A stretch of DNA of 32,151 nt from Candidatus Nitrosotenuis sp. (GTDB taxonomy: Archaea; Thermoproteota; Nitrososphaeria; Nitrososphaerales; Nitrosopumilaceae), in assembly GCA_004322465.1 (NCBI GenBank), contig SCVO01000006.1, positions 1 through 32,151 of the forward strand. Direction: 5' to 3'. The notes under the pieces were generated by a model that was not told where the DNA came from, searched no databases, and worked only from the letters and a program-made list of their open reading frames with translations. How positions within the stretch are numbered: the first letter of the stretch is position 1; the number at the start of each line of letters is the position of its first letter. Both the position numbers and the translations under genes were made by a program. Of this stretch, positions 121-26,541 are shown piece after piece.

Positions 121-842
121 AACAAGAAAATGAATTTGGAAATATTCCCAAAATAGAAAAACAGGCACTGAGCAACGAGGAGCGCGCAATACGCAAAAAC
201 AAGCTGTATGCCATCGGAGAACTGTCGTCAAGGTTGGCGCACGATCTGCAAAATCCACTGGCAGTGATAAAAAACACTTTGGAAATCCTAAGATTGAGGG
301 ATCCCAAACTGGATGAAAAAACAAGAGAGAGTTACGATAGGATGGAAAGAGCAACCACAAGAATGATGCAGCAGATCAGGGAGGTTTTGGATTTCGTCAG
401 AACTGGAGACTTGATGCGTGAGGAAATTTTAGTATCCGAATTATTAAAAACAGTCATCGAGGACATGGATGTGCCAAAAGAAATTCAGATTATTTTGCCC
501 TCCCAAGATGCCAAGATATTCGTAGACATAAAACAGATGCAAACGGTATTTGCCAATCTGATACTAAATGCAATTCAGGCCATCGACGACAAAGGCAAGA
601 TAATGATCCAGGTTTTTGATTCTGATGACGACGTGGTAATTGAGGTAATTGATAACGGCCACGGCATAAAGAAAGAAAACGTGCAGCATGTTTTTGAGCC
701 CTTGTTTACCACAAAACAGAGCGGAACTGGCCTTGGGCTTGCAAGCTGCAAGGCAGTAATAGAAAACCACAGTGGCACAATAGACTGCACCAGCATTGTG
801 AACAAGGGGACCGTGTTTACCGTAAGACTGCCAAAGGTCTAG
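3..842 (+). CDS. Sensor histidine kinase, 5'-truncated by window edge
   Basis: This is the C-terminal part of a two-component histidine kinase that phosphorylates an unseen response regulator. The frame is open from the first bases, so the true start is outside the window. In order, it has an alanine/leucine/charged linker of near-perfect 11-residue repeats (nt 1-120), a charged helix, the H-box (AHDLQNP, phospho-acceptor His encoded near nt 240), the N-box (NLILNAIQAI), the G1 box (DNGHGI) and the G2 box (GTGLGLA). The HisKA and HATPase_c domains are therefore complete. No membrane segment is visible in this part. A TTG at 234 could be mistaken for a start, but it lies inside the H-box region and the frame is clearly coding upstream. 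No partner regulator is adjacent, since the next gene is purN. The sensory input domain cannot be seen. Confidence 0.93.
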   Translation, partial: ARLLKNAQEDAARLLKNAQEDAARLLKNAQEDAARLLKNEQENEFGNIPKIEKQALSNEERAIRKNKLYAIGELSSRLAHDLQNPLAVIKNTLEILRLRDPKLDEKTRESYDRMERATTRMMQQIREVLDFVRTGDLMREEILVSELLKTVIEDMDVPKEIQIILPSQDAKIFVDIKQMQTVFANLILNAIQAIDDKGKIMIQVFDSDDDVVIEVIDNGHGIKKENVQHVFEPLFTTKQSGTGLGLASCKAVIENHSGTIDCTSIVNKGTVFTVRLPKV

Positions 843-12247: not shown

Positions 12248-12253
12248 CAAACA

Positions 12254-12262
12254 AAATATAAA
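12254..12262 (+). promoter_or_regulatory. TATA box of sucCD
   Basis: AAATATAAA is centred 26 nt before ATG 12284. Confidence 0.6.
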
Positions 12263-12283
12263 GACCGTGAAAAAGTTTTCTGC

Positions 12284-13396
12284 ATGCGTCTTTTGGAATA
12301 TCAGGCAAAGGAGCTGTTTGCGCAATACGGCATCAAGACCCCAAAGGGAATATCCTCAAAAAACATCGAGCAGGCAAGAAATGACGCAAAGCAGCTTGGC
12401 TACCCGTTTGTAATCAAAGTCCAAGTTCCAGTAGGCGGCAGGGGAAAAGCCGGAGGCATACAAAAATGCCACAATGACGACGAGTTTGAGCTGAAATACC
12501 CGCAGCTCCTAGACATGTCAATCAAAGGCGAAAAGACAAGGGCCATCCTGCTTGAGAAGATGGCAGAATATGAAAAAGAATTGTACTTATCATTATTTTT
12601 GAATCGCAGCAAAAGATGCTATACGGTAATTGCGTCCTCCGAGGGAGGAGTTGAAATCGAGTCCGTGAAAAACCAAGTGATACGCGAAGTAGGACTAGGT
12701 AACGTAGACTCCCAGACTGCAGAAGAGATTGCAAAACAAATCGGGCTTCAGGGAAGAACGGTTGCTGACTTTGTGGACATGCTGCAAAGACTTGCCAAGA
12801 TTGCAATGGAAAAAGAGGCAGAGCTTGCAGAAATAAATCCGGTTGCGTTACTAAAGGACGGATCACTTTTAGCACTAGACGGCAAAGTTGTCACAGACGA
12901 CAACTCTAACTTCAGACATCCAGAGATGGAAAAATACCAAGAAAAGACAGAGCTTGAGGAAAGAGCGGAGAAGAGCGGATTCACACTAGTAGAGCTTGAC
13001 GGAAACATCGCGGTGGTAGGCAATGGCGCAGGTCTTGTCATGTCAACACTTGACATGCTTGCGGACAACGGCGGCAAGCCGGCGTGTTTTCTTGATGTAG
13101 GCGGCGGTGCTACAACTGAATCAGTGTATGAGGCCCTCACGCTTGTTTCCAAAATGAAAAAAGTAAAAGCAATTTTGGTAAACTTGTATGGAGGAATAGT
13201 AAAGACGACGACGGTTGCCGCGGCATTTATCAAAGCATATGACGACAAGCTGATTGACCTTCCAGTGTATGCAAGGCTGATGGGATCCGAGTCCGAAAAA
13301 TCAAAAGAGATGCTCAAAAACACACGGACAAAGATGTTTGATTCCGTAGAAGACGCGATAAACGGAGTGGTGATGGAGGTAAGCAAGCGTGGCTAA
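12284..13396 (+). CDS. sucC: Succinyl-CoA synthetase beta subunit (SucC)
   Basis: SucC is the ATP-grasp subunit of the cytoplasmic succinyl-CoA synthetase, which interconverts succinate plus CoA with succinyl-CoA at the cost of ATP or ADP. The 370 residues show the N-terminal family start MRLLEYQAKELFAQYGI, the ATP-grasp segment VQVPVGGRGKAGGI, the metal site LAEINPVAL, and the C-terminal CoA-ligase domain with LDVGGGATTESVYEAL and VNLYGGIVKTTTVA. ATG 12284 follows a strong TATA box. Its end overlaps sucD by 8 bp and contains the GGAGG that serves sucD. In thaumarchaea, succinyl-CoA is also an intermediate of the 3-hydroxypropionate/4-hydroxybutyrate cycle (established knowledge), so this pair links to carbon fixation. 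Confidence 0.94.
   Translation: MRLLEYQAKELFAQYGIKTPKGISSKNIEQARNDAKQLGYPFVIKVQVPVGGRGKAGGIQKCHNDDEFELKYPQLLDMSIKGEKTRAILLEKMAEYEKELYLSLFLNRSKRCYTVIASSEGGVEIESVKNQVIREVGLGNVDSQTAEEIAKQIGLQGRTVADFVDMLQRLAKIAMEKEAELAEINPVALLKDGSLLALDGKVVTDDNSNFRHPEMEKYQEKTELEERAEKSGFTLVELDGNIAVVGNGAGLVMSTLDMLADNGGKPACFLDVGGGATTESVYEALTLVSKMKKVKAILVNLYGGIVKTTTVAAAFIKAYDDKLIDLPVYARLMGSESEKSKEMLKNTRTKMFDSVEDAINGVVMEVSKRG
13375..13379 (+). promoter_or_regulatory. Shine-Dalgarno of sucD inside sucC
   Basis: GGAGG lies 9 nt before GTG 13389, within the last codons of sucC. It shows translational coupling in a gene that cannot have its own leaderless start. Confidence 0.7.
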
Positions 13397-14312
13397 CATT
13401 TATGAGCTCCTAAGGGGCAAAAAAGACGCGGACGGGAACTGGCAGAAGGTTCCAGTAATAGTCCAGGGGATCACCGGCACGTTTGGCTCGCTTCACGCAA
13501 AGCAAATGCTTGACTACGGCACAAACATTGCGGCAGGAGTCACACCAGGAAAAGGCGGACAAAAGTTCGAAGGCAAGGTTCCAATATACAATACGGTAAA
13601 GGAGGCAGTGGATGCGACTGGCGCCAAAGTTTCAATTGTGTTTGTTCCGGCAAAATTCTTTTTGGGTGCGGCAACTGAGGCACTGGAAGCAGGAATAAAG
13701 CTCCTAGTTTCAATACCGGAGCATGTGCCAGTGATTGACACGATGCAGGTAATTGAGCTGGCAAAGAAAAAAGACGCAATAATCATAGGCCCAAACACAC
13801 CAGGAGTCATGATACCAGGACTGATCAAAATTGGAATAATGCCTGCAAGCCCGTTCAAGCCAGGAAACATAGTGGTTCTTTCTAAAAGCGGCACGCTCCT
13901 TTACGAGATTTCAAACACGCTAACAAAGGCAGGATTCGGACAGACCATAACCATAGGAATTGGAGGAGACCCGGTGAACGGCACAAGACTGATTGACGCG
14001 TTTGACATGGTAAAAGACGATCCATCCATAGAAGGAATGGTAATAGTTGGAGAGATAGGCGGTGACGCCGAAGAAATAGTTGCCCAGCACATCATGGATA
14101 TCAAATTCAAAAAACCAATTGTCGCATACATTGCAGGAAGGCGAGCTCCAAAAGAAAAGAGAATGGGCCATGCCGGTGCGATAGTCATGGGAACCTACGG
14201 CTCTGCAGAATCAAAAGTTTCCATGTTCAACATGGCAAACATCCCAGTTGCCAAAAGGCCAAACGAAGTAGCCATACTATTGGCAGGCAAGTTGGAGAAA
14301 ACCAAAGACTAA
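13389..14312 (+). CDS. sucD: Succinyl-CoA synthetase alpha subunit (SucD)
   Basis: SucD binds CoA and carries the phospho-histidine of succinyl-CoA synthetase. The 307 residues include the CoA-binding Rossmann start (VIVQGITGTFGSLHAKQML), the GVTPGKGGQ loop, the GPNTPGV motif, and the active-site loop with RMGHAGAIV, whose His is the phosphorylated residue. GTG 13389 is supported by GGAGG 9 nt upstream. The 8-bp overlap with sucC indicates one operon. rpl40e follows 28 bp downstream and may belong to the same transcript. Confidence 0.94.
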   Translation: MANIYELLRGKKDADGNWQKVPVIVQGITGTFGSLHAKQMLDYGTNIAAGVTPGKGGQKFEGKVPIYNTVKEAVDATGAKVSIVFVPAKFFLGAATEALEAGIKLLVSIPEHVPVIDTMQVIELAKKKDAIIIGPNTPGVMIPGLIKIGIMPASPFKPGNIVVLSKSGTLLYEISNTLTKAGFGQTITIGIGGDPVNGTRLIDAFDMVKDDPSIEGMVIVGEIGGDAEEIVAQHIMDIKFKKPIVAYIAGRRAPKEKRMGHAGAIVMGTYGSAESKVSMFNMANIPVAKRPNEVAILLAGKLEKTKD

Positions 14313-15842: not shown

Positions 15843-17246
15843 CTATTTCTTGCAGATTACCTTACTTGATTCCCCTCCATCATACAGATAAGATATTGCG
15901 CTTAGATCACATTCTGAGATGTACGGGTAACTAGTTGTGATTACTGGAGCCATCATATCTTCAGGAGCAGTAGAATGCGCCAATCCAAATCCATGCCCAA
16001 GTTCATGTCTCACAAGTGTCTTTAGATCTTCAGTACTAAGATCGTTAATGTCGTATACTGTAATCGTAGACTTTAGTATCTGATGGTTTTCTTCATCCAC
16101 TATTGACTTTGTATATCCTGAATAACCGTCAGGATTTGATAAATCCGTGAGTTCGATTTCAATATTGCCAGTAGCAGTTCCCTCATCTATGTCAAAGTGA
16201 AGGTTTTTGATAATGTTGAATTTTGTGTCAGTTGTGATGCTGTTTAGAGCACCATACCAACCAACATAGTAAGTAGAGTTTGTTCCTTTTGTGCCTTTAT
16301 GCGTTACAGAGTCATCCAATTCAATTTTTTGTCCAGACATGATCACATCCAGTATTGCGTCCAGTCTTTCCTTTGTAGCATATTTGGAATTCAGGACGTG
16401 TATGTGAAACGGCATGTCCGGTGGGGTTTTCCAAGATATCCACGTGTCTACAACATCCCCTCGCAGGTTTTGGATCAGATAATTTGTTGAAAGAGGATGA
16501 GATAGAGATCCCGAATACTCCCTATTAGAAACTCCAGAAGGATTTAGATAAAAAATGCCGCCACCTATCAAAACAACAATCATCACAGTTACGAGTAGAA
16601 TTACTTGTTTTTTATTTTGTAACTGTAATTTTTTGAGAAATATTGTACTTTTCAGATGTTCAATTGAGCGATATGTGTTTTTTGCGGTACTTCCAGAATA
16701 AACATTTGCACTTTCTCTTAACTTGTCAGATGCATCATTTGCAGTTTTTTTCATATGTTCAACTACGATATTTGTTCTTGCCATTAAATTGAGAGTGACG
16801 ATATGTGCAGTTTGTTTTAGATTTTCAGATTCTTTTTGTGCACTTCGTCTTAGATTTTCTGCTGAAACTTTAGCAGATTCTTTTAGATTTGAAGAGTGCA
16901 TTTGTGCACTTCGTCTTAGATTTTCTGCTGAAACTTTAGCAGATTCTTTTAGATTTTCTGCTTTAATTACAGTAGTTCTTTGTAGATTTTCAGATACAAC
17001 CTCTGCATAATGTTGAGCATTATCCAATTCTATTTTTTCAATATTTTTAATATTAACCGAGGCAATATTTGCGAGTCTTTTTAGATTTTCAGATTCAACT
17101 TTTGCACTTTCTCCCAAATTTTCAATTTCAGTTTGGGCACTATTTTTAAGATTATTGTTTTCTACCGCTATTTTATTTATTAAACTCTCAGAGTCACATA
17201 CGGCATTATCTATCAAATTTAGAGATTCAGCCAAGGCAGAATTCAA
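15843..17246 (-). CDS. Membrane-tethered matrixin-like metalloprotease with 11-residue coiled-coil repeats
   Basis: The frame from TTG 17246 gives 467 residues, but the true protein is longer (see the upstream extension). Residues 1-185 are continuous 11-residue repeats with the pattern NLxxSAxxxxE, a hendecad coiled coil. A helix follows, then one membrane segment (about residues 214-234) and an extracytoplasmic domain of about 230 residues. The zinc site is complete: HELGHGFGLAH gives His414, Glu415, His418 and His424, and a Met-turn lies in DMMAP. Two Cys near the end (SECDL and VICKK) may form a disulfide. This is the metzincin (matrixin-like) arrangement. Two paralogues of the catalytic domain lie at 23001-24941 and 25492-26541. 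Substrates are unknown. The coiled coil would lie in the cytoplasm. Confidence 0.87.
   Translation of the reverse strand: MNSALAESLNLIDNAVCDSESLINKIAVENNNLKNSAQTEIENLGESAKVESENLKRLANIASVNIKNIEKIELDNAQHYAEVVSENLQRTTVIKAENLKESAKVSAENLRRSAQMHSSNLKESAKVSAENLRRSAQKESENLKQTAHIVTLNLMARTNIVVEHMKKTANDASDKLRESANVYSGSTAKNTYRSIEHLKSTIFLKKLQLQNKKQVILLVTVMIVVLIGGGIFYLNPSGVSNREYSGSLSHPLSTNYLIQNLRGDVVDTWISWKTPPDMPFHIHVLNSKYATKERLDAILDVIMSGQKIELDDSVTHKGTKGTNSTYYVGWYGALNSITTDTKFNIIKNLHFDIDEGTATGNIEIELTDLSNPDGYSGYTKSIVDEENHQILKSTITVYDINDLSTEDLKTLVRHELGHGFGLAHSTAPEDMMAPVITTSYPYISECDLSAISYLYDGGESSKVICKK
16835..16956 (-). repeat. 66-bp tandem duplication inside the hendecad region
   Basis: Fifty-six identical bases occur at 16835-16890 and again at 16901-16956, offset by 66 bp. 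Each copy encodes two successive hendecads (NLKESAKVSAE then NLRRSAQ...). It is the most recent duplication of an otherwise diverged 33-bp-periodic array. Confidence 0.95.
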
Positions 17247-17488
17247 TAGATTTTCAGATTCAATTCGTCCACTCGTTACGAGATTTTTGGATTTAGTAAG
17301 ATCTTCTTTTATTAGATTGTCAGATTCAATAAGATCTGATTTTATTAGATTTTCAGATTCAATTCGTTCTTGTTCTTTCAGATTTTCAGCTTCAATTCGT
17401 TCTTGTTCTTTCAGATTTTTGTCTTTAATGAAAGGTTCAATAAAATCATCAACAAAATTATCATCAGTCGTTGTTATTCACTTTCCAT
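17247..17488 (-). other. Upstream coding extension of the metalloprotease, with a missing or frameshifted start
   Basis: The reading frame is open for 77 more codons upstream of TTG 17246, up to a TGA at 17478-17480. It continues the same hendecad pattern (NLKEQERIEAE, NLKEQERIESE, NLIKSDLIESD, NLIKEDLTKSK, NLVTSGRIESE) straight through the TTG, which is therefore an internal Leu. No ATG, GTG or TTG occurs in this extension. Just upstream, ATG 17486-17488 opens MESE in another frame and stops at once; AT-rich TATA-like sequence (17505-17518) lies about 20-28 nt before it. Either the start is non-canonical, or a frameshift (real, programmed or a sequence error) lies at about 17470-17480. Confidence 0.75.
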
Positions 17489-18108
17489 AATAGTAAGAAT
17501 ACTGAATATGGTCATATGTTAGTAATGTCGCTCTTACATTTATCTTGTTCTAAAGACATCAATTCTAGTAGTGAACGATTGGTTGGCAAATTGGATTCAA
17601 TCAAATACATGAGATCATTCAAATCTTGTGAAGCCCATTATTGTAAGAAAATTAGTTGAATATGAGCAGAGAGTGGATGTGGTTGCATGTAGGACATAAG
17701 GAATGGCAGTACAGAGTTAGCAGTTGGAATTTTACTTATTCGTAATAGTGGATTTTCGTTTTTCTATGGCGATAAGATACAATAAAAAGAGATGTTTGAT
17801 TTATTGGAAAAAACAATGCTCAGATTTGAAAATGAGAGACGGATTGCGCATGATGAAATCGAGAATTTATTACGCATCAGGATTACCTAGGCGAATCTAT
17901 CTTGTCTTAAAGCCTCAAACAATTCTGGGGCGTCATCCATGATCGCCTGTATTTCTTGCAGAAACAGTTCGTCAGTCACACCGTATGATACGGCATGGCA
18001 TTTTATTAACACGGTGTCATTTTAAACGAAAGATTGTTCATATCTGGGCTCAAGATCTATGGTGCTCCATTTTACGCAATGATGCTTGAGTGCGATTAAT
18101 GCAGAGAT
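17489..18108. other. 620-bp low-coding stretch with gene fragments
   Basis: No full gene is evident. Short frames suggest decay: on the plus strand MFDLLEKTMLRFENE... (from ATG 17792, 32 codons), and on the minus strand a 41-codon frame (17887-18012, listed separately). Base composition is AT-rich and stops are frequent in all frames. It may be a relic of a signalling gene, but nothing can be named. Confidence 0.45.
17887..18012 (-). CDS. Possible 41-aa small protein, unknown
   Basis: A GTG at 18010-18012 opens a 41-residue frame, with an in-frame TAA 9 nt upstream. The product starts VLIKCHAVSYG and continues TDELFLQEIQAIMDDAPELFEALR, an acidic amphipathic helix that looks protein-like. It has no clear TATA box at the expected distance and no Shine-Dalgarno sequence. 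It may be a real small gene or the preserved end of a decayed one. Confidence 0.3.
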   Translation of the reverse strand: MLIKCHAVSYGVTDELFLQEIQAIMDDAPELFEALRQDRFA

Positions 18109-19200
18109 TTATGGTTTTGACTTTTTGCTGTGATTAACTAGTTTTTGCAGTATTACAGAATGCCAGCCAGTCGAATAATTCTCAAATCCAGGAGAAAGCG
18201 CATGGCCAATGCAGCATTGCGTGCCGGCATATTCAGTAAACATGTAATTCTTTTTTTCGCCAAAAAGACTTGTTTTTTTGTCAAACTGTAGCGTTTCTTT
18301 TAGCATTTTGCCATCAGAGTCGGCCAGTATCAGCCCGTCACCGTCAACAATGCAAATCCTAGTGTGATTTTTTTCATCTGCGTCTATTGGGGTGTGATTA
18401 ATTATTGTCTGAGAGAGGGATTCCCACTTGAAAATTACCCCCAGGACTCCGATTATCTTGCCTTTTGTGTCACCGTTTTCACGAACGGCCGCAGAATACA
18501 CTATTGCGAGATCATTGTTCACTAGCGGAGATCGTGACACAGATTGAAATCCAAACTCACTGCCACTTTTTGTCCTCATTGCGCTTGTGAACCATTTCGT
18601 GTTTGCGACGTTGGTGTTTACTGAGGAATATTTTTCCTTATTTCCGTTCACTACGATGTTTCCATCCACATCGGCTAGCACCAAGTCATAGTAAACGGTG
18701 TAAGCTTGCAGTATGACGTTGAGGCGTTGCGATGTGGATTCGTACACGTCTTTGGTTTTTTTCGTTAATGCGTCAACTACGTTGCCATCAGTTGCCCACC
18801 ACCTCACGTCTGCAGTCCTCTCATACAGGTTACGATCGATTAGATCAATGTTGACCAAAGCCAGATCAGACAGCCTGTTTCCCCGATATTCCTTTGATTG
18901 GGATTTGATCAGGGTGCCAACTTCCAGTATTTCCTTTGTGTCCTTTCGCATTCGCTCAGTAATCTTTATTGTCTCATCGGATAACTCGCTCATGTTTGCA
19001 GCAACTATTCCAAAAGGCCTTCCAAAGGTTCCTGCCCGTGCAGCCTCAATTGACGCATTGACTGAGAGCACGTGCGTTTTATGATTAATGTTATCTACTT
19101 TGTCAATTGCATTGTCCAGTTTTTCTGCAATAAGATCTGTAAACTCAACCACTTCTTCTAAAGTAAATTTTTTTCCCTGGATTGTTTCAGATACTTGCAC
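18109..19200 (-). CDS. Soluble chemoreceptor-tip plus Cache-domain sensor
   Basis: This 363-residue protein has no signal peptide or membrane helix. The first 100 residues resemble the hairpin tip of methyl-accepting chemotaxis proteins, including HVLSVNASIEAARAGTFG and the following GIVAANMSELSDE, the part that docks CheA and CheW. Residues of about 120-355 resemble a double Cache sensing domain (ADVRWWATDGNVVDALTK, YYDLVLADVDGNIVVNG, ICIVDGDGLILADSDG). The order is inverted relative to ordinary receptors and the Cache part would be cytoplasmic. The start is GTG 19200, since an in-frame TAA lies upstream. A TTTAAA box (19244-19249) is 25 nt before an out-of-frame ATG at 19222, which leaves a leader of about 22 nt for the GTG. 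No che genes are in the window. Confidence 0.82.
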   Translation of the reverse strand: MQVSETIQGKKFTLEEVVEFTDLIAEKLDNAIDKVDNINHKTHVLSVNASIEAARAGTFGRPFGIVAANMSELSDETIKITERMRKDTKEILEVGTLIKSQSKEYRGNRLSDLALVNIDLIDRNLYERTADVRWWATDGNVVDALTKKTKDVYESTSQRLNVILQAYTVYYDLVLADVDGNIVVNGNKEKYSSVNTNVANTKWFTSAMRTKSGSEFGFQSVSRSPLVNNDLAIVYSAAVRENGDTKGKIIGVLGVIFKWESLSQTIINHTPIDADEKNHTRICIVDGDGLILADSDGKMLKETLQFDKKTSLFGEKKNYMFTEYAGTQCCIGHALSPGFENYSTGWHSVILQKLVNHSKKSKP

Positions 19201-19368
19201 GAGTATACTTGGTACTTTCCATTAGAATCCTTTGTATGATTGCTTTAAACAAACAAGATGTCATATAACGACAAAAGGTTGTTTTCCAGATAACAGGCAA
19301 CAAAAAACTAGAATTGCAAACCTACTGCGTTTGGCAACAGAGACAGGTTTTGTCATTTGCTGTCGAGT

Positions 19369-19842
19369 TTAGATTCGGCATATCGCGCAGATGGTGTTCT
19401 CTTGAGTTTGAATATGATAGTGCCCTCCAAAATCTTTTAGAATGTTGCAAAACAAAGACTTGAAAAACAAATTGCCAATATCCCCCATCTCATGGCTAAT
19501 TCTCAAGTATGCCTTGCCCGCACGAAAATAACAAGTTGTTTGAGCAGACATCGGGGAGGCGATTTTTTCCAGAATGGAGCGTGTTTGTTCAAGTGTTTGA
19601 CGCTGCAAGCCAGGGCTCGCTTTGTTTTCTTCCAAGATTGCCAGCACATATGGCTCTATTGCGGACGTCGCCTTTTGTTCAAGCAAGTCCTTTATTTTTT
19701 GCCACTCCTGCGCAGAACCAGCCATCGTAGCCCGCCCCACCTCATTAATGGTCAAATGGTCAGCGTCAGACAGGCGCGCGACTCCTTCAAACTCTGTCAG
19801 TGTGCCTTTGTTTGGTTCCTGGCTTTTTGAGAGGCTTTTCAA
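19369..19842 (-). CDS. 157-aa protein of unknown function
   Basis: I do not recognise this protein. It begins with a polar segment (SKSQEPNKGTLTEFEGVARLSD), has a long helical middle (EWQKIKDLLEQKATSAIEPYVLAILEENK) and ends in a Cys/His-containing tail (HYHIQTQENTICAICRI). No membrane segment is seen. The start is TTG 19842. The nearest AT-rich element is not at an ideal distance. The small gene at 19916-20068 lies 73 bp upstream on the same strand, and its TATA box could drive both. Confidence 0.6.
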   Translation of the reverse strand: MKSLSKSQEPNKGTLTEFEGVARLSDADHLTINEVGRATMAGSAQEWQKIKDLLEQKATSAIEPYVLAILEENKASPGLQRQTLEQTRSILEKIASPMSAQTTCYFRAGKAYLRISHEMGDIGNLFFKSLFCNILKDFGGHYHIQTQENTICAICRI

Positions 19843-19915
19843 ATTACACTTGTTAGTTTTATGTTGCGTGTATTAGCTAGTGTTTGTAAAAAACATACAG
19901 ACATGTGCAGCATTG

Positions 19916-20068
19916 CTATCTGCATTCATCTTCGGCCGATAACGATTTCATGGATTTTGTAAACAGCATTGATGTCTTAAAATTAGCCTCAAGCGGATCG
20001 TCGTTTTTTTCCATGGTGAGCCTTTTGTTCCCACGTCTTTGCAGACGCATGTTATCATGCTGGCACAT
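19916..20068 (-). CDS. Small basic protein, 50 aa, unknown
   Basis: ATG 20066-20068 opens a 50-residue frame beginning MCQHDNMRLQRRGNKRL and ending SLSAEDECR. The first third is strongly basic, and the rest is mixed and helical. The main support is an excellent TATA box (ATATAAAATA, 20091-20100) centred 27 nt upstream, the leaderless spacing seen across this window. A shorter start at ATG 20014 would give 32 residues. It precedes the 157-aa unknown gene on the same strand. Confidence 0.5.
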   Translation of the reverse strand: MCQHDNMRLQRRGNKRLTMEKNDDPLEANFKTSMLFTKSMKSLSAEDECR

Positions 20069-20090
20069 GGGTTTGCTACGTTTTGCAGCA

Positions 20091-20100
20091 ATATAAAATA
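20091..20100 (-). promoter_or_regulatory. TATA box for the 50-aa gene
   Basis: TATTTTATAT on the minus strand is centred about 27 nt before ATG 20068. Confidence 0.5.
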
Positions 20101-20176
20101 GCACGGACTTGGCAAACCGCCAAAAGCAGAATGGAAGAATAGAATGGTTTTTTAGCAAATATTTCCTTTTTCGTTT

Positions 20177-20893
20177 GTGCAGTTTCAGATTCTAAACAAC
20201 CCCATGAGCATACTCGAAGTCCACATGGGCAAGGGGGAAAGCATCACGGCAGAGGCAGGTGCACTTGTATTCATGAAGGGGAACATCGAAATCAAGACTA
20301 GAATGCGAGGGGGCTTTCTAAAGACGGTAAAGGTTTCGCTTTTGGGAAACGAGTCGTTTTTTGTCAACGACTATGTTGCAGGCGAGGATGGTTGCGTTTT
20401 GGGGCTGACAGGCCCCCCGGTAGGAGACATAGTAGAAATTCCAATAGACAGCGACAATGGATTCATAGTGCAATCAGGCTCATACATCGCATCCACCCCA
20501 GGAGTCGACATAGACACAAAATGGCAGGGATTCACAAAGGGAATTTTCGGGAGCGAGATTTTCATGCTAAAGGTCACGGGAAGCGGAAAGGTGTTCTGCA
20601 ATGCATATGGAAGCATAATAAAAAAACAGATTGCAGGCGGAGAGAAAATGATCCTTGACAACTATCATCTTGTTGCGCTAAGCCAGAACTCAGAGTACAG
20701 AGTGACGAAATTTGGGGGATTGAAGAACACAATTCTTGGCGGAGAGGGGCTGGTCACTGAAATCGTCGGGCCCGCCACAATATACTTGCAGACAAAGAAC
20801 CTCAAGGAACTCATAGATCTTCTCGGCGTCAAACACACAAGTGAGACCCAGGGAAGCGGGATGTCCATTGGCGGCTTTAGGTTCGGCACGTAG
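20177..20893 (+). CDS. AIM24/TIGR00266-family protein
   Basis: This 238-residue protein belongs to the AIM24 (TIGR00266) family, a double beta-barrel, trimer-forming fold found widely in bacteria and archaea. Family traits are the start MQFQILNNPMSILEVHMGKGESITAEAGALVFM, Gly-rich turns (GGEGLVTEIVGPATIYLQT) and a C-terminal Gly-rich tail. Members are of unclear function; the mitochondrial homologue supports inner-membrane organisation. There is no signal peptide. GTG 20177 is the start. It is convergent with the receiver gene, with stop codons one base apart. Confidence 0.9.
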   Translation: MQFQILNNPMSILEVHMGKGESITAEAGALVFMKGNIEIKTRMRGGFLKTVKVSLLGNESFFVNDYVAGEDGCVLGLTGPPVGDIVEIPIDSDNGFIVQSGSYIASTPGVDIDTKWQGFTKGIFGSEIFMLKVTGSGKVFCNAYGSIIKKQIAGGEKMILDNYHLVALSQNSEYRVTKFGGLKNTILGGEGLVTEIVGPATIYLQTKNLKELIDLLGVKHTSETQGSGMSIGGFRFGT

Positions 20894-20894
20894 A

Positions 20895-21302
20895 TTATGA
20901 TGCGTGGGATTTAAACGCCTCGTTGACTAGTGGAATGATTTCGTCTGCAAACGACTGTTTCCCCATGAACCCATCAATATGGATTGACGGCAAGACCTTG
21001 CGGAATTCCGCCAAGGTTATTCTAATCGTAGTGATCAGCAGAATTTTGATGCCTCTGTTTTCCAGTCTTGTTTTTTTGATAAATTCAAACGCAGTCATGC
21101 TTTTTGTAGTCGAATCGTAAATCAGAAGGCGGTAATTATCTGGGTTCTTTTGAAATTCGCTCAATGCCAGAAAAGGATCCGTGAACACGTCGGTTTTGAA
21201 ATGATTTTCCTCCAGTATTGATTTGATTGAGTATGCGGTGTTGGACTCGTCCACCACAACTAGTATTTGCTGATGTTGAGTAACACCTGCCATATCGCAC
21301 AA
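20895..21302 (-). CDS. Stand-alone receiver domain (response-regulator-like)
   Basis: This 135-residue single receiver domain has no output domain. The conserved sites are recognisable: the acidic pair Asp18/Glu19 (VVVDES), the phospho-acceptor Asp63 (LLIYDSTTKSMTAFEF), Thr91/Thr92 (LLITTI) and the switch Lys114 (GFMGKQS). It may act as a phosphate shuttle or by protein-protein contact. Starts are TTG 21302 or ATG 21293. No TATA box is obvious at the leaderless distance, so a leader may exist. No kinase gene is adjacent; the nearest, at 3-842, is far away. Confidence 0.85.
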   Translation of the reverse strand: MCDMAGVTQHQQILVVVDESNTAYSIKSILEENHFKTDVFTDPFLALSEFQKNPDNYRLLIYDSTTKSMTAFEFIKKTRLENRGIKILLITTIRITLAEFRKVLPSIHIDGFMGKQSFADEIIPLVNEAFKSHAS

Positions 21303-21761
21303 GTCACGACCAAATCGCGTCCAAATCCTAGATAGTGATTTCGTCTATTAAGCACACAGTTAGAAAGTTCTATAGATTTGTAATCTAGTAAAACATCAAA
21401 CGCGTCTTATTCAGAACATGGTAATGTTACAAGAGAACATTTCCATTTTTGGAAACAATTTTTGGTTTCCAAAGGATCGCATCAACACATGAAAACAAAA
21501 CGGCAAATTTTGCAAAACAAAAATTGTTTTTCTTTGTATGGTGGAGAGACATTTCCAAGTTTTGTTTTAGTTCTGAGAAGATGCATTGTAATAATTGCCA
21601 TGACTGAAAACCATCAATTGCTTCTCTACAAGTTTACTCTTGCCACTAGTTTGGCACGCGTTCAGAAAAGTTCCCTATGGAACTAAGGTGCGAATATCCG
21701 TAATCCGTCATTTCCGGTTTTGGCAGAGGGGGTTTTTAAGATAGAATTTCACAATCAAACC
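21303..21761. other. 459-bp gap with several hairpin-forming repeats
   Basis: No convincing gene is present. Three compact inverted repeats lie here: TAGATT/AATCTA (21373-21378 and 21382-21387), TTTGGAAAC/GTTTCCAAA (21448-21456 and 21465-21473, loop 8) and AAAACAA/TTGTTTT (21514-21520 and 21524-21530). The promoter of the next gene lies at 21733-21740. A non-coding RNA or regulatory region is possible. Confidence 0.45.
21733..21740 (+). promoter_or_regulatory. TATA box of the RHH-like gene
   Basis: TTTTTAAG is centred about 26 nt before ATG 21762. It favours that start over the in-frame TTG at 21720, which lies upstream of the box. Confidence 0.55.
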
Positions 21762-22046
21762 ATGGCAGGTAAGGACTCACCAAAGGTGCCAAAGAGCAAG
21801 AAAAGCATCACATTAGAGAAGGAAATCGAGACAAAGGTACGTAAGATTCAAGCGCGGTTAATCGAAAAAACAGATCAATCCTGGAGCATATCCATGGTTT
21901 TGAACATGCTTGTGACCGGCGGCTTAATGCACACCAAGAAAATGAGCAAATCAGATTGGCAAAAAGTAAGATCGATGGTCGAACAAAAGGCAGTGAGTTT
22001 TGACGATTCGATGATTACAGATTTTGTAAAAAAGATCGGCGAATAA
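21762..22046 (+). CDS. Ribbon-helix-helix-like small DNA-binding protein
   Basis: This 94-residue basic protein has a start MAGKDSPKVPKSKK, then a segment (SITLEKEIETKVRKIQARL) that could be the strand and first helix of a ribbon-helix-helix fold. A second helix with hydrophobic spacing (SWSISMVLNMLVTGGL) follows, and the C-terminal half is helical (VEQKAVSFDDSMITDFVKKI). RHH proteins bind DNA as dimers. ATG 21762 fits a TATA box; an in-frame TTG at 21720 lies upstream of it and is less likely. The family call rests on the pattern only. It could regulate the neighbouring sensor or protease genes. Confidence 0.65.
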   Translation: MAGKDSPKVPKSKKSITLEKEIETKVRKIQARLIEKTDQSWSISMVLNMLVTGGLMHTKKMSKSDWQKVRSMVEQKAVSFDDSMITDFVKKIGE

Positions 22047-22126
22047 TAAATCACGACAGATACGGTCCCAATTACTTCAAAATGATACCCATCCATCTGA
22101 CGATGCCAGCATTCAGAGACAAGAAG

Positions 22127-22825
22127 CTAACTTGACTTGTCCTGGTCTTTTTTTATTTTCCCTAATTCTGCAATAAGTCCATCAATTTTCCCAGATACGG
22201 ATTTTGAAAAGAGCACGCCGGACGCTGTCGTAAATGATATGATTGCTACAACCATAACCGTATTCATGTAAAAAATACTGTTGTATCTATCAGTCAAGTT
22301 TTCATTTGCTTCTGAAAGTTCGCTACGTTCGCTTTTCAGGGCAACTTGAATCGCCTCAAGTGCATCGCCTTCTTTTTCTTCAAGCTCCTTGCGAAGGGCT
22401 TGAAGGTCGGGTTGGGTGAGTGTTTTTTCTGATTTTATAATTTCGTCAGAGATGCTGAAAAGGCTGTTTGTTTTTTCTTGAATGTTCTTTGCCAATCCAA
22501 TTTCATCCGGAAAATACACGTACGCCAAAGACTGGTATGTGCCAAACGCATCATTGTATTCTTTTTTTCCCTCCGCAATAAGGCTGAGCTCGTCCGCTGT
22601 CTCGGATTGACCGGAAACTAGCAAATATTCATTGGTTGATGAAACAACCCTCAGGACAGAGAATTTCATTTCATTCAGTGCTGCCAGTGAGGGTATGGTA
22701 CGATCACCTATCTGATGAGTTGATTCCTGTAATTTCGTCAAAGAGGCCAGGGTGAAATAACCTACAAATCCTACTTGTACACAAACTATTATGATTATTA
22801 TCAGCATGCTATTTCTAATCTTCAC
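22127..22825 (-). CDS. Four-helix-bundle sensor domain with two membrane helices and no output domain
   Basis: This 232-residue protein has a membrane helix at residues 6-25, an extracytoplasmic helical region of about 160 residues (LTKLQESTHQIGDRTIPSLAALNEMKFSVLR...) typical of 4HB_MCP sensors, a second membrane helix (about residues 186-208) and a 24-residue cytoplasmic tail. The HAMP, kinase or chemotaxis domain expected after it is missing; the tail ends KIKKDQDKSS. It could pass its signal to another protein through helix packing, or it may be a truncated receptor. GTG 22825 has a perfect GGAGG 8 nt upstream, but a TATA-like TTTTAAAA is centred only about 22 nt before the start, so the two signals conflict. 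Confidence 0.82.
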   Translation of the reverse strand: MKIRNSMLIIIIIVCVQVGFVGYFTLASLTKLQESTHQIGDRTIPSLAALNEMKFSVLRVVSSTNEYLLVSGQSETADELSLIAEGKKEYNDAFGTYQSLAYVYFPDEIGLAKNIQEKTNSLFSISDEIIKSEKTLTQPDLQALRKELEEKEGDALEAIQVALKSERSELSEANENLTDRYNSIFYMNTVMVVAIISFTTASGVLFSKSVSGKIDGLIAELGKIKKDQDKSS

Positions 22826-22833
22826 AATATTCT

Positions 22834-22838
22834 CCTCC
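22834..22838 (-). promoter_or_regulatory. Strong Shine-Dalgarno before GTG 22825
   Basis: GGAGG (followed by AGA) lies 8 nt before the GTG. It is unusual in a region where most starts look leaderless. Confidence 0.6.
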
Positions 22839-22980
22839 AGAACTTTTTAAAAGACAGCATAGAGAATTTCCGACCATTTTTATTCCAAAATTCCAACATG
22901 AAAATCAATTATTAAGAATAATCAAGAATATCAGGTATGGAAATGATACAGGCAAGACATTACAGATTATTTAATAAATG

Positions 22981-23017
22981 AAAAAACCCCAGTTGCGGCA
23001 TCACTCGCAAACTGAGG
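22981..23017 (-). terminator. Hairpin with T-run overlapping the protease stop codon
   Basis: On the minus strand CCTCAGTTTGCG pairs with CGCAACTGGGG (one bulge, one mismatch) around an 8-nt loop, and six T follow. The stop codon of the 646-aa protease (23001-23003) lies inside the loop region. The form is that of an intrinsic terminator. Confidence 0.65.
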
Positions 23018-24941
23018 CTGGATTCTGTTCGTCATATAATGAGATTATGCCTCCTATTTCACATTCTGATATGTATGATGTCGCTTGCTCAATTTTGTGG
23101 TAGGCGTCTTCTTTGTTAGATTCTGGCAATCCAAGCGCATGGCCAAACTCATGCCTGACGATGGAAGATAGTTCTTTGTCATTGAGATTTTCGACATCAT
23201 ATATTGTTACAAATGATTTGAGAATCTGATGATTATTTTCGTCTGCAATTGATCTTGTAACAGCCAAAGCACCTGACTCTTGAGAAGATTTCGATAGAAT
23301 TATCAGTATCTTTCCAACTGGCTTGTCTGATTCCTCGATTTCAAAATCCTTTGGAATGTACCAGGAAGTTTCATTCTCGCTCGTCTTTTTTAACGCGCCT
23401 TTCCAGCCTACATAATCAACGTGCTTTATTGCAGAAGTTCCCACAAGGGCAGACTTTGATGTCTCGATCGTTTCCTCGGAGAGGATTGCATTTCTTATTA
23501 CGTTAATTTTTTCCTTCGGTAACAAATTAGAATTAACTATGCTAACATGAAGCACGGATTCCTTCGGCACATACCACGCGGCCCACGTGTTAATTGGTTG
23601 GCCTTTCAAGTTTTCAATGATAAATCTTCCCGGAGTCAACGCCGCACTTGGTTGAAACAATTCACCATACATGTAAAAAGAGAATATGCCTGCAACTACT
23701 AAGCTTACCAACAAAACCGCGTAGGTGGTATTCTTGCCGGTTTTTTCGATATTGTTAAGTTTTTTCTGCATAAGAACAAGGGTTTCACTAGCCAGTATTT
23801 TTTCTAGTTCGATTTCTTTGTATTTGCGAGGTTCTTTCATTGTTTCTTCTATGGGCTGCACCGTCTGCGCTGATTGCAGCATTCTCATTTTCGATTTTAA
23901 AGTCGTGGATTTTTTTCCAATTATGACAATTCCAGCGCAGAGAATGAGGACAGTGATGATACTGCCATAAAGAATGGGCGAAATTATGGTGATTTCTCTT
24001 GCAGACAGGCGTTCTAACGGGTAAATTTGGAGAATAGATAGGGAAAAAATGGTCACCGCTGTTGCAATTATGAGAGGAGCCACAAAGAGGCTTTTCGCAG
24101 ACTCATCCTTTGGAATAGTTAACCTGATCTGTTCAATAATTGGAAGTGGGTTTTTTTTCATAACTTGATTCTGTTTATGAGCCCCGTAAGCCATTATGGC
24201 GTATGCCACGCCATATCCCAATCGCAACGGATGTCCGGCATAATAAAAATTTGTTATCTGTGAAAATAAGAATACAGTGTCCGTTGCGACATTAAGTATT
24301 ATTGCTGCTGTCAATATCCAGAAATAATTCTTTTCTAATTTCTGATAAATTACCACCCCCATAACTAGAGGGACAAGCAGTATTGAGTCGATGATTGTAT
24401 ACAGAAATGATAAGAGGACGCTGAAATTTACGACATCCCCGGTTTGAAAGATTGCAATTATCGACGGCGTTAAAAGTGAGGTCGAGAGTAGCGAAGATAA
24501 AACTAAAATCTTCTTTGATATGAATTCTCGTGCAGGTTTCAGAACAATAATCAAATAAACAAACAAAGCAACTTCCCCTGCAAGCCAAAACGGATCTGAC
24601 CATGACGGATATCGTTTTATTTGTAAGATTTCTTCTGTATATGCCCTAATCAGTTCCGATAAAAACCAAAGTGCCCCAAAACATCCAAATAGACTTGTGA
24701 TTACCGTATCCTGCTTGTTTTTCGACTTTGGGATGAGGTTAAGCGTTAATGCAGCAAAAAATCCGGACGCTACTATCGAAGTGGTCGTAAGGGCATGACT
24801 TGTAATTTGTGGTCCGTAGAAATAGCTTACAAAAACTATCGTGCCAATTGCGGTAAGGCACAATACCAGCACCCATTTGTCACGTAATCCCTTAGCAAAT
24901 TGTTTTGAGTTAGCATCAACTGACTTTGAATCAAATTCCAT
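23001..24941 (-). CDS. Multi-pass membrane sensor fused to a matrixin-like metalloprotease domain
   Basis: This 646-residue protein has about ten membrane helices. Helices 1-7 (about residues 23-232) include YPSWSDPFWLAGEVALFVY, a pattern I associate with multi-pass input domains of sensor kinases. Two more helices follow (about residues 285-345), then a cytoplasmic charged linker with a helix (IELEKILASETLVLMQKKL), a last helix (about residues 405-425) and an extracytoplasmic C-terminal domain homologous to the other two proteases. The zinc motif is HEFGHALGLPE: His597, Glu598 and His601 are present, but the third ligand position holds Glu607 instead of His, and there is no clear Met-turn. 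Activity may be altered or lost. ATG 24941 is clear, with a weak TAATA box about 25 nt upstream. Confidence 0.85.
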   Translation of the reverse strand: MEFDSKSVDANSKQFAKGLRDKWVLVLCLTAIGTIVFVSYFYGPQITSHALTTTSIVASGFFAALTLNLIPKSKNKQDTVITSLFGCFGALWFLSELIRAYTEEILQIKRYPSWSDPFWLAGEVALFVYLIIVLKPAREFISKKILVLSSLLSTSLLTPSIIAIFQTGDVVNFSVLLSFLYTIIDSILLVPLVMGVVIYQKLEKNYFWILTAAIILNVATDTVFLFSQITNFYYAGHPLRLGYGVAYAIMAYGAHKQNQVMKKNPLPIIEQIRLTIPKDESAKSLFVAPLIIATAVTIFSLSILQIYPLERLSAREITIISPILYGSIITVLILCAGIVIIGKKSTTLKSKMRMLQSAQTVQPIEETMKEPRKYKEIELEKILASETLVLMQKKLNNIEKTGKNTTYAVLLVSLVVAGIFSFYMYGELFQPSAALTPGRFIIENLKGQPINTWAAWYVPKESVLHVSIVNSNLLPKEKINVIRNAILSEETIETSKSALVGTSAIKHVDYVGWKGALKKTSENETSWYIPKDFEIEESDKPVGKILIILSKSSQESGALAVTRSIADENNHQILKSFVTIYDVENLNDKELSSIVRHEFGHALGLPESNKEDAYHKIEQATSYISECEIGGIISLYDEQNPASVCE

Positions 24942-25104
24942 TAACAGTAACTGAGCTTTTGGGTATTAGAATTCAGAGGCAAATATCACTATTGAGAAGA
25001 AACGATTCCCCCCATAGCCACATCCGAACCATGTGACCTTAACTACACCCACAAGATGAGGTCGTCATAAATGGCGATTTTCACACGATGAATAATCCTT
25101 AAGG

Positions 25105-25120
25105 TTATCAGAAATGATAA
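25105..25120. promoter_or_regulatory. Short inverted repeat upstream of the protease operon promoter
   Basis: TTATCA-GAAA-TGATAA is a perfect 6-bp inverted repeat ending 11 bp before the TATA box at 25132-25139. It may be an operator. Confidence 0.3.
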
Positions 25121-25131
25121 TTTTAACTGCC

Positions 25132-25139
25132 ATTAATAT
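25132..25139 (+). promoter_or_regulatory. TATA box for the 25163-26541 operon
   Basis: ATTAATAT is centred 27 nt before GTG 25163. Confidence 0.5.
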
Positions 25140-25162
25140 CGATTGGAATCACGTTCTCAAGA

Positions 25163-25495
25163 GTGTTTATGAACCAAAATTCGAGTGATGCTTCCGTATT
25201 GCTCAGGCACAGCAACATTCCAATCCTCCCATTAATTTCGATGTTAGTAATAATCATCGTCATCAATTTTGCCGAAAGGGAAAATCACCAAATTGGCACG
25301 AAACGTGTTGCGCGTTCCCGTCACTTTGTTTTTTGTCATCACACCTCCAACCCGATGATTAAAACCAAAGAAAAAACACTCAGAAAACTTTTTGTTTTTT
25401 ATTCACTTGCAACCGATCGCAGAGAGGCACGCGGTATTTTTAATAACCTATTAAAAGGAACGGATGCTGATTTTAGGAAAGTAAAACACTCATGA
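25163..25495 (+). CDS. Small single-pass membrane protein coupled to the metalloprotease
   Basis: This 110-residue protein of unknown family has a polar N-terminus, one hydrophobic helix (IPILPLISMLVIIIVINFA) and a basic C-terminal half (TLRKLFVFYSLATDRREARGI). Two facts support it. A TATA box lies 27 nt before GTG 25163. Its TGA stop overlaps the ATG of the next gene as ATGA, a classic sign of translational coupling. An internal ATG (MIKTKEKTLRK) could give a shorter soluble form of 46 residues. It might be a partner, inhibitor or regulator of the protease that follows; that role is inferred from position alone. Confidence 0.5.
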   Translation: MFMNQNSSDASVLLRHSNIPILPLISMLVIIIVINFAERENHQIGTKRVARSRHFVFCHHTSNPMIKTKEKTLRKLFVFYSLATDRREARGIFNNLLKGTDADFRKVKHS

Positions 25496-26541
25496 AACAT
25501 CGCATTCTTCTAACAACGGGGGCAATTGTCGGTATTGCGCTAATAATAATTTCACTTTTGTTCTCTTTCAAGTTTTCATTTAGTTCCAATGAAGAAAAGA
25601 TCATCCCCATGACATATGCCAGTTTGTTTTTCGTACCAATTCCTATCGCATTGGGATTGTTTTTTTTGAAAAAAAGGATATCGTCGAAATCAAAATCAGA
25701 GCAGGTGTTGTCTGGAAAAACTTCATCGGCACAGGACAAGATTGCTTCCATTGAAAGACAGATTCAGAATCTTGAAACAAAAAATAAAAAGAATTCGATA
25801 ATCATAGTTTTAGGCATAGTGGTGCTGGCAGGAGTTTTGGTTGCCTATTCTTCTTTGAATTTCATAGAACGTCCAACGCAGCAGATACTGTCTTCAGGGC
25901 GATTCATAGTTGAAAACCTGAAAGGAGATACAATCAAGATATGGGTCACATGGCACATTCCAAAGGACGTGCCGTTACAGGTAACCATAATAAACTCGCC
26001 AGACTTGCCCGATGAAAGGATTAATGCAATCAAGGAAGCAATCGTTTCTGAAAAAACACTAGCGTTGAAAAACGTGTTTTTAAATAAAGAATCGCCAAGC
26101 GAAAAATCAACATACTACGAAGGCTGGAGAGGGGCTCTGAAAAGCATCGCCGAACAAAAAACTGAGTTCAACATCCCTACAAATTTTGTGGTAACGACGT
26201 CAGAAAAATCAATAGGCGATGTCATCATAATTTTATCTACTGCAAAAGAGGCTGATGGCACTTATGCATTCACAAGAACTATTGCCGACGATGGTGCAAA
26301 CCAAATTTTAAAGTCTTTCATCACTGTCTTTGATGTTGAAAGTCTCAATAATGAGGAACTTGCGGCAGTAATCCGACACGAGTTCGGGCATGCAATGGGG
26401 CTTGCCCATTCCACTGCCGAGGAAGACTTGATGTATCCGACGTTTTATTCCAACCGTGCCTTCATTTCCGAGTGTGATCTTGATGCGATGCTGTCACTAT
26501 ACAGCGGCTCAAAATCTGCAGAGGTAGTTTGCAGACATTGA
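25492..26541 (+). CDS. Membrane-anchored matrixin-like metalloprotease (short form)
   Basis: This 349-residue protein has two membrane helices near the N-terminus (about residues 5-26 and 40-59), a charged helical linker, a third helix (residues 102-120) and an extracytoplasmic protease domain. The metzincin zinc site is complete: HEFGHAMGLAH gives His296, Glu297, His300 and His306, and the Met-turn is Met314 (EEDLMYP). Two Cys in the shared C-terminal motif (FISECDLDAM and VVCRH) match those of the paralogues. It is the cleanest catalytic domain of the three. It is coupled by ATGA to the upstream small membrane protein. The substrate is unknown. A secreted or surface protein, or another membrane component of the cluster, is plausible. 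Confidence 0.88.
   Translation: MKHRILLTTGAIVGIALIIISLLFSFKFSFSSNEEKIIPMTYASLFFVPIPIALGLFFLKKRISSKSKSEQVLSGKTSSAQDKIASIERQIQNLETKNKKNSIIIVLGIVVLAGVLVAYSSLNFIERPTQQILSSGRFIVENLKGDTIKIWVTWHIPKDVPLQVTIINSPDLPDERINAIKEAIVSEKTLALKNVFLNKESPSEKSTYYEGWRGALKSIAEQKTEFNIPTNFVVTTSEKSIGDVIIILSTAKEADGTYAFTRTIADDGANQILKSFITVFDVESLNNEELAAVIRHEFGHAMGLAHSTAEEDLMYPTFYSNRAFISECDLDAMLSLYSGSKSAEVVCRH

Follow-up and report, generated by a model that had tools for sequence, protein, structure and literature searches.

Membrane-tethered matrixin-like proteins of Candidatus Nitrosotenuis as possible outputs of two-component signalling

The matrixins or matrix metalloproteases (MMPs; PF00413; MEROPS M10A) have an HExxHxxGxxH zinc site and a Met-turn. 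Their domain is about 160-170 residues long, and animal MMPs carry the cysteine-switch propeptide motif PRCGxP. In the Spo0F-Spo0B phosphorelay, a receiver-only protein works with a DHp-type domain carrying the His without an ATPase, and ChpT is likewise a DHp-type domain with a His and no ATPase. Control of surface cleavage from within the cell is described for the Pseudomonas LapD-LapG-LapA system, in which a cytoplasmic signal crosses the membrane to control cleavage of a surface adhesin, whose gene has lapG and lapD as neighbours (PMC3032545). In the thaumarchaea, about three quarters of the response regulators consist of a receiver and nothing else; a 2018 census places most of these receiver-only regulators outside any conserved neighbourhood, which prevented inference of their functions (PMC5847659). 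In a study of sponge-associated thaumarchaea, the matrixins of arCOG04994, possibly the same family as the one described below, are interpreted as enzymes for the degradation of host proteins (PMC6697440).

The window, the whole stretch of DNA that was analysed, comprises 32,151 nt of Candidatus Nitrosotenuis sp. (GCA_004322465.1, contig SCVO01000006.1, forward strand, positions 1-32,151). Three ORFs within 15843-26541, P1, P2 and P3, have a common C-terminal domain of about 215 residues. The first-pass annotation had taken these domains, spread over 10.7 kb, to be paralogous, and the alignment agrees: the other two are 36% and 40% identical to that of P1, and the HExxHxxG and ISEC...LY...C columns align across all three. 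The count of three holds for the cluster but not for the genome, which has nine strong members of the matrixin-like family, compared with 0-5 copies in each of 16 congeners, several of them incomplete; copy numbers from a further scan, in which at most seven candidates per genome were scored, are lower bounds. Of 108 matrixin ORFs, 106 make up the family set used below; L010/L018 and L108:16115, both weak, are omitted from it and included in counts of 108. Domain set A6 holds 79 of 84 available domains, five near-copies or partial domains being omitted, the 23 chosen rows of set A7 are drawn only from the window and L019-L097, and the family tree is a quick build with SH-aLRT as its only support. 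Judged by sequence, P1-P3 are members of a lineage-specific, membrane-tethered matrixin family.

P1 (15843..17246, reverse strand; ORF and Pfam) consists of a hendecad coiled coil, one TM helix and a matrixin domain (15846..16508, reverse strand; Pfam and alignment) with the complete active-site motif HELGHGFGLAH...MMAP. Its match to PF00413 (2.6e-8, 34.3 bits) is above the curated cut-off of 24 bits. The coil region, predicted to be cytoplasmic (16622..17477, reverse strand), has 85 lag-11 identities, whereas 200 shuffles gave 22 on average and 32 at most, which confirms the hendecad pattern noted earlier. The start of P1 is unsure, since the frame remains open to 17477 and contains no ATG, GTG or TTG upstream of 17246.

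P2 (23001..24941, reverse strand; ORF and Pfam) has a multi-pass (7TM-type) sensor, a coil, a TM helix and a degenerate matrixin domain. By sequence matches, the module of its sensor region (23738..24941, reverse strand) is also part of histidine kinases and exists as stand-alone proteins of about 270 aa; it is joined to HisKA and HATPase_c in 7 of the 7 long relatives opened among several dozen listed. The HExxHxxG motif reported for all three proteins is present in P2 as a string (HEFGHALGLPE), but in the alignment its domain (23004..23636, reverse strand) lacks the third zinc ligand, a His, and the Met-turn, and its PF00413 match (9.3e-4, 19.5 bits) falls under the cut-off. The full-length model of P2 has a mean pLDDT of 66.2, with the sensor part weakly predicted.

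P3 (25492..26541, forward strand; ORF and Pfam) retains one TM pair of a sensor, followed by a coil, a TM helix and a matrixin domain (25885..26538, forward strand) whose site, HEFGHAMGLAH...LMYP, is complete and whose PF00413 match (7e-10, 39.4 bits) is again above 24 bits. Upstream and out of frame with P3, the segment 25169..25411 (forward strand, frame +2) aligns with the paralogue L004 over its residues 3-84 (39%, E 3e-9), while P3, from its own start onwards, corresponds to L004 residues 278 (approximately) to 627. P3 has thus lost most of the sensor that is retained in P2. The idea that the window's three proteins have independent input modules is therefore rejected, and the first-pass claim of three different N-termini does not stand: P2 and P3 share one, the short anchor of P3 being what is left of the sensor.

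This debris, together with the lost zinc site of P2 and a copy number above that of the congeners, would fit a cluster of decaying duplicates with no present function. Such a reading is quite improbable for the cluster, and it is compatible with the explanation favoured below for the family. P2 (646 aa) and its degenerate relative L008 (640 aa) are 47% identical and both have intact open frames, dN between the P3 and L004 domains is 0.18 with dS saturated at about 3, and the zinc site of P3 is complete; the retained frames and these distances point to long purifying selection. The degenerate copies of G083 and G141 (dN 0.10, dS 0.41) have values near those of the active pair (dN 0.07, dS 0.37) and are thus constrained. 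An active and a degenerate member are encoded head to head in four places, namely the window, C83, G083 and G141. Since P2-class proteins have lost the zinc site while fold and frame are kept, they are more likely to regulate an active P3-class partner than to cut.

Matrixin matches were obtained for 105 of the 106 family proteins, and the closest PDB relatives by profile are MMP-20 and MMP-2. The AF2 prediction of the P3 domain has a pLDDT of 92.1. When it was submitted to Foldseek, the best 50 of 650 matches were all MMPs, led by MMP-3 (E 3.8e-7), with query TM-scores of only 0.40-0.48 among the matches listed; in predicted structure, the check for a metzincin fold that the first-pass annotation had proposed thus comes out in its favour. 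The likeness to the matrixins, in the P1 and P3 class, lies in this predicted fold, the zinc site and the Met-turn. In contrast to those enzymes, the archaeal proteins have a longer domain, an N-terminal TM tether, two C-terminal Cys and fusions to signalling modules, and the PRCGxP motif was found in 0/106. Two Cys lie within the domain in 103/106 members. The K+R count is higher before the TM helix than after it in 89 of 90 single-TM members, and the predicted topology is a cytoplasmic N-terminus, a TM helix and an external metzincin domain.

Even though the window has no receiver/kinase pair adjoining P1, P2 or P3, such genes are common beside their relatives, on which the two-component case rests because P1-P3 sit in no kinase/receiver operon. 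A receiver on the same strand and within 400 bases of the matrixin gene is found in 37 of 65 synteny-independent (deduplicated) loci and for 48/108 genes, against 16 of 594 control ORFs from the same loci, which are uncurated and include spurious frames; 28 of the 65 groups lack it. In 23/108 cases, a histidine-kinase-cluster gene on the same strand is present as well, no more than two genes away. L014 and L015 are operons with a kinase, a receiver and a HisKA-matrixin, and Nitrosotalea devanaterra (L059) has a receiver-matrixin-kinase group with a matrixin of the coiled-coil type. Clustering of the relatives' paralogues with signalling genes, anticipated by the first-pass annotation, is therefore seen, both in adjacency and in fusion. 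Among the 63 adjacent regulators, PF00072 is matched in 62, the receiver Asp is present in 60 and the Lys in 57. Pfam finds a known output domain in only 5/63, and for 58/63 (VpsR in 3 set aside) neither NitrOD5, TackOD1 nor another named output domain is listed, so that most have no visible means of their own for controlling transcription. Most appear to be of the receiver-only kind, the open frame being at most 147 aa in 31 of 35 upstream regulators; whereas the 2018 census found mostly no conserved neighbourhood and its main text has neither "protease" nor "peptidase" (PMC5847659), the matrixin neighbourhood recurs. The kinase-cluster neighbours scanned (39 of 40, the window's 4HB being omitted, and including three HisKA-only ORFs) contain HisKA in 38, HATPase_c in 35, dCache_1 in 14 and CHASE3 in 5. 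Regulator and matrixin distances correlate over 35 pairs (r 0.70, 0/2000 permutations, species tree uncontrolled). Neighbourhood and correlation show co-inheritance, not contact.

The same parts are also fused to the ectodomain directly. The 106 proteins include 13 with HisKA, 2 with dCache_1, 1 with Response_reg and 9 with the multi-pass sensor, the others having mostly coiled coil. The 15 Pfam families listed for them include no HATPase, so that the HisKA fusions, which all keep the phospho-acceptor His of the H-box (13/13), lack the HATPase_c domain that follows HisKA in a histidine kinase. HisKA-only ORFs lie directly upstream of the matrixin gene at three loci (L026, L034 and L041). The DHp domains of the fusions are no closer to the kinase of their own operon (0.348) than to other kinases (0.353; 9 pairs), and a shared DHp specificity was dropped as a candidate. 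These fusions, the low rate among controls from the same loci and the regulators without a listed output domain argue against constitutive surface or nutritional proteases whose kinase and regulator neighbours would reflect mere co-expression or signalling-rich islands in small genomes. That alternative, which would agree with the host-degradation reading of arCOG04994 and with the setting of P1-P3 themselves, is unlikely.

Because the N-termini are common to two-component proteins and the genes often lie beside response regulators and histidine kinases, we favour, with a probability of roughly 0.6, the reading that the P1-P3 family would be outputs of two-component signalling, in an inside-out pathway ending in surface proteolysis. 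A cue sensed by a histidine kinase would lead to phosphorylation of the receiver-only regulator, which would dock on the matrixin protein from the cytoplasmic side, contacting either a coiled coil or a HisKA/DHp dimer, to whose phospho-acceptor His the phosphate would perhaps be handed. For the coiled-coil-only members, which are the majority, regulator contact is a guess. The change would then pass along the coil and through the TM helix to switch or position the external protease, which would trim cell-surface proteins, a neighbouring Ig/FN3 surface protein (c37) being one candidate. In the multi-pass versions (P2 and P3 class) the sensor would be within the same protein, a module that seems to be decaying in the window. 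A pathway ending in proteolysis "rather than transcription or motility", as first put forward, is what we infer.

The direction of the signal could also be reversed, with the matrixin domain as an input, a protease-type sensor that binds or cleaves an external ligand and sends the signal into the cell by way of HisKA, the coil or the multi-pass module. Histidine kinases, too, contain HisKA and the multi-pass module, and domains without the third zinc ligand are retained (11/106, with low dN/dS in one orthologous pair), which would suit a binding role. However, the operon kinases have their own dCache_1 or CHASE3 sensors, the third His is kept in 95/106 and P2-class proteins already have a sensor ahead of the domain, which makes an input role rather unlikely. 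The output reading can be drawn more specifically for the Nitrosopumilaceae as a phosphorelay with kinase, receiver-only regulator and DHp-bearing TM matrixin in line, the surface protease being the terminal phospho-acceptor and the dead paralogues heterodimer partners; this would be one job of the many receiver-only regulators of these archaea, and we propose it only tentatively, at a little under even odds. Unlike in Spo0F-Spo0B and ChpT, the DHp domain is here joined to a TM helix and an external protease, and the phosphotransfer is putative.

Ammonia-oxidising archaea are among the most abundant archaea on Earth, and the gene and domain arrangements suggest that they answer signals by cutting their own surface proteins. 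Kinase, receiver and matrixin genes recur as a group, and in other genomes these parts are fused; this would offer a concrete output, namely control of surface proteins without transcription. If true, this adds a phosphorelay route to the inside-out proteolysis already described in the c-di-GMP Lap system, with which the proposed matrixin pathway shares control of surface cleavage across the membrane. Lap depends on a free cysteine protease that is sequestered by a receptor for c-di-GMP (PMC3032545), whereas here a zinc protease is part of a TM protein and the proposed signal is a phosphorelay. GGDEF and EAL, the domains of the Lap-type c-di-GMP receptor, and any cysteine protease, which in Lap is of the BTLCP type, are absent from the Pfam lists of the 106 matrixins, 63 adjacent regulators and 39 kinase neighbours. 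By analogy, the matrixin system may work like Lap while not being a Lap-type system. Open PMC papers gave no mention of HisKA together with matrixin, nor a joint mention of histidine kinase, response regulator, Nitrosopumilus and metalloprotease; a 2025 MMP phylogeny touches the order of these archaea in passing and contains neither "transmembrane" nor "histidine kinase" (PMC12587646).

The genes between the paralogues were described in the first-pass annotation as sensor parts without outputs, and Pfam recovers Cache, receiver and 4HB genes there, the receiver below threshold. Their part as partners of the matrixins is tentative; the partner seen most often in relatives is a receiver, in many cases together with a complete histidine kinase. 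The window's receiver-only protein (20895..21302, reverse strand; 27.6 bits against a cut-off of 30.2) is not borne out as a standard partner. The 4HB sensor downstream of P2 (22127..22825, reverse strand; Pfam) has two TM helices and no output domain that was found; a homologue (54%) occupies the equivalent place beside L008 on contig C83, and the gene is kept as a candidate partner. The remaining gene (18109..19200, reverse strand; Pfam) encodes an MCP signalling region followed by dCache, with no TM helix found. It was set aside as a standard partner, as L108 (genome G141) is the only other locus where it accompanies matrixin genes, lying there three genes away from a HisKA-matrixin; L037 has a longer relative of it some 4.7 kb from a matrixin gene. 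CheW and MCP genes are also present in the window's genome.

The three genes that the first-pass annotation had read as paralogous membrane-tethered metalloproteases are all present, P1 at 15843-17246 (-), P2 at 23001-24941 (-) and P3 at 25492-26541 (+). Their last ~215 residues are homologous, as had been claimed, with 36% and 40% identity to P1, and in the alignment the HExxHxxG stretch, ISEC, LY and the final Cys are invariant across the three. P1 (2.6e-8) and P3 (7e-10) match Pfam Matrixin above the cut-off and have HExxHxxGxxH and a Met-turn. P2 falls under the cut-off (9.3e-4); it does share the HExxHxxG attributed to all three, but its site reads HEFGHALGLPE and the Met-turn is missing. 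A profile search of the PDB with a 79-row domain alignment finds matrix metalloproteinases (MMPs), MMP-20 at 3e-11. The metzincin fold is also supported by the predicted structure of the P3 domain (mean pLDDT 92.1), for which the best 50 of 650 Foldseek matches are all MMPs (best E 3.8e-7), at query TM-scores of just 0.40-0.48. Motif, profile and predicted fold together therefore identify the domain as matrixin-like, and the protease domain is a known family. It is larger than the MMP catalytic domain; exactly two Cys are found in 103 of 106 domains, and a cysteine switch in none of the 106 family proteins. The P2 domain model is mostly at pLDDT ~80-97, with two or three blocks at 56-66, one of them directly after the altered zinc site. 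In P1, which carries a hendecad coiled coil, the frame is open upstream of the first possible start, a TTG at 17246, and holds no ATG, GTG or TTG over 17247-17477 (-), so that the start of P1, or the reading there, is unsure.

The count of three paralogues is right for the window, but the genome as a whole encodes nine strong members plus two weak ones; 16 congeners, several of them incomplete, have 0-5 each. Matches at 1e-10 occur in 131 of 400 genomes of the class, 100 inside the Nitrosopumilaceae and 31 outside. None of the 31 has a match better than 1.1e-20, and two genomes inside are equally weak (1.9e-16 and 8.7e-19). The best 79 loci in a scan of named genomes are titled Nitrosarchaeum, Nitrosopumilus, Nitrosotenuis, Nitrosotalea and Nitrososphaeraceae, or bear broader names such as Thaumarchaeota and Nitrosopumilales. 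Among 106 distinct full-length proteins, including the nine of the window's genome, Pfam finds Matrixin in 105, HisKA in 13, dCache_1 in two and Response_reg in one; ten proteins were rechecked singly. The phospho-acceptor His is kept in all 13 HisKA domains. In a quick domain tree, nine multi-pass rows, P2 and P3 included, form one group (SH-aLRT 99), and 12 HisKA rows form one group among the labelled rows (SH-aLRT 96). The thirteenth HisKA protein, at locus L024, is placed elsewhere, which points to repeated gain or frequent loss of this domain. Within the HisKA group, three loci encode the HisKA part as an ORF of its own immediately upstream.

One protein, L113:7388-8899 (-) of genome G251, combines a receiver domain, a TM helix and a matrixin domain, with Asn at the third zinc ligand position (HEFGHALGLSN). 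At L075, L076, L079 and L085 the third zinc His is gone and the Met-turn kept; over the whole tree this trait requires six changes. More distant matrixin-like proteins occur in the same genomes (L108:16115-17008 (-), L010 and L011), one of them with TPR-like repeats by eye.

Of 90 single-TM members, 89 carry more Lys and Arg ahead of the TM helix than behind it, which should place the N-terminus in the cytoplasm and the protease outside. Among 151 genomes of the family, 83 contain relatives of the multi-pass region of P2, and many of these relatives are free proteins of ~270 aa. HisKA and HATPase_c follow it in all seven long relatives opened, of several dozen listed. P2-class proteins thus resemble these kinases in their build, except that coil, TM helix and matrixin domain stand where the kinase core would be. 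The short three-helix anchor of P3, described earlier as a separate input type, is really the end of a multi-pass sensor. L004, a full-length paralogue on another contig of the same genome (C83), matches all of P3 and also, in a different frame, window 25169-25411 (39%, E 3e-9). L004 and L008 on C83 lie head-to-head, one complete and one degenerate, like P3 and P2. Genomes G141 and G083 also have such a pair, in which the degenerate copy is only 371 aa; a search with 400 aa of the L008 sensor recovers just residues 294 to 399-400 in these genomes. A large protein (c37) follows the complete gene on the same strand on C83 and in G083 and G141, and is not found after P3 in the window; the C83 copy contains Ig-like, FN3, HYR and laminin-G-like domains. 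The degenerate gene is followed by a 4HB gene in the window (22127-22825 (-)) and on C83, with 54% identity between the two, and not in G083 and G141. The C83 pair, the out-of-frame sensor match and the 4HB homologue make P2, P3 and the 4HB gene appear to be one duplicated block that is decaying in the window.

The association of the paralogues with signalling genes is borne out in relatives. Neighbour genes were clustered without using names, and 62 of 63 adjacent members of the receiver cluster match PF00072; named output domains listed among the 63 are NitrOD5 (four) and TackOD1 (one), with VpsR in three. Histidine kinases make up most of a second cluster: of 39 members scanned, 38 match HisKA and 35 match HATPase_c. 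A receiver is the immediate neighbour of 61 of 108 matrixin genes, and in 48 cases the two genes share a strand and lie no more than 400 bases apart. After loci sharing synteny are merged, an adjacent same-strand receiver is found in 37 of 65 groups, versus 16 of 594 control genes taken from the same loci, each four or more places distant (Fisher p ~3e-30). Both a receiver and a kinase-cluster gene lie on the same strand within two genes of 23 of the 108. In 35 the receiver is directly upstream, and in 18 of these the first ATG of the matrixin gene is no more than 15 bases from the receiver's stop. The window's genome, with 24 receivers and 22 HATPase_c matches found, has a same-strand receiver adjoining three of its nine matrixin genes, a number reached in 181 of 20000 uniform-placement trials in which nearness was 1.9 kb and contig breaks were ignored.

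A protein with a sub-threshold CBS match (c5) adjoins 25 of the 108 genes, and a large protein (c3), whose one tested member has a sub-threshold Big_1 match, lies within two genes of 25; the c3 protein is a candidate protease substrate. One synteny group (L016, L022, L035 and others, titled Nitrosotenuis and Nitrosotalea) has a conserved row of c3, CBS-like c5 and matrixin. Matrixin genes also lie near one gene pair, which we take to be sucCD, in four loci (window 12248-14309, L031, L108 and L118); the matrixin types differ among these loci, as if the site were one of turnover.

What can be read from the genes is the domain, a predicted membrane tether, common signalling modules, recurring gene partners and intact phospho-sites. 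In the proposed pathway, phosphate would pass from kinase to receiver, the receiver would act on the cytoplasmic portion of the matrixin protein, and the coil and TM helix would relay the change to the outside, where surface proteins would be cut. Against it count the 28 of 65 groups with no adjacent receiver, the lack of a kinase-receiver pair adjacent to P1-P3, and a negative result when shared DHp specificity was tested. The degenerate class is constrained in the single orthologous pair measured, where dN is 0.10 and dS 0.41, close to the values of the active pair (0.07 and 0.37); the simplest guess is therefore that degenerate paralogues regulate their active partner. Inside-out control of surface proteolysis has a precedent in LapD/LapG (PMC3032545), and matrixins have been noted in sponge-associated thaumarchaea, where they were interpreted as a means of host protein degradation (PMC6697440). 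An archaeal two-component census places thaumarchaeal receiver-only regulators mostly outside any conserved neighbourhood, and neither 'protease' nor 'peptidase' occurs in its main text (PMC5847659). Among open PMC papers, none was found joining matrixins with two-component signalling.

Two other proteins of the window have unusual arrangements. The histidine kinase at 3-842 (+), truncated where the contig begins, carries four almost identical repeats of 11 residues (AARLLKNAQED type) ahead of its core, with the same period as the P1 coil. In the protein at 18109-19200 (-), in which no TM helix was found, the MCP signalling region precedes the dCache domain, reversing the usual order; a close relative is L108:4263-5378.
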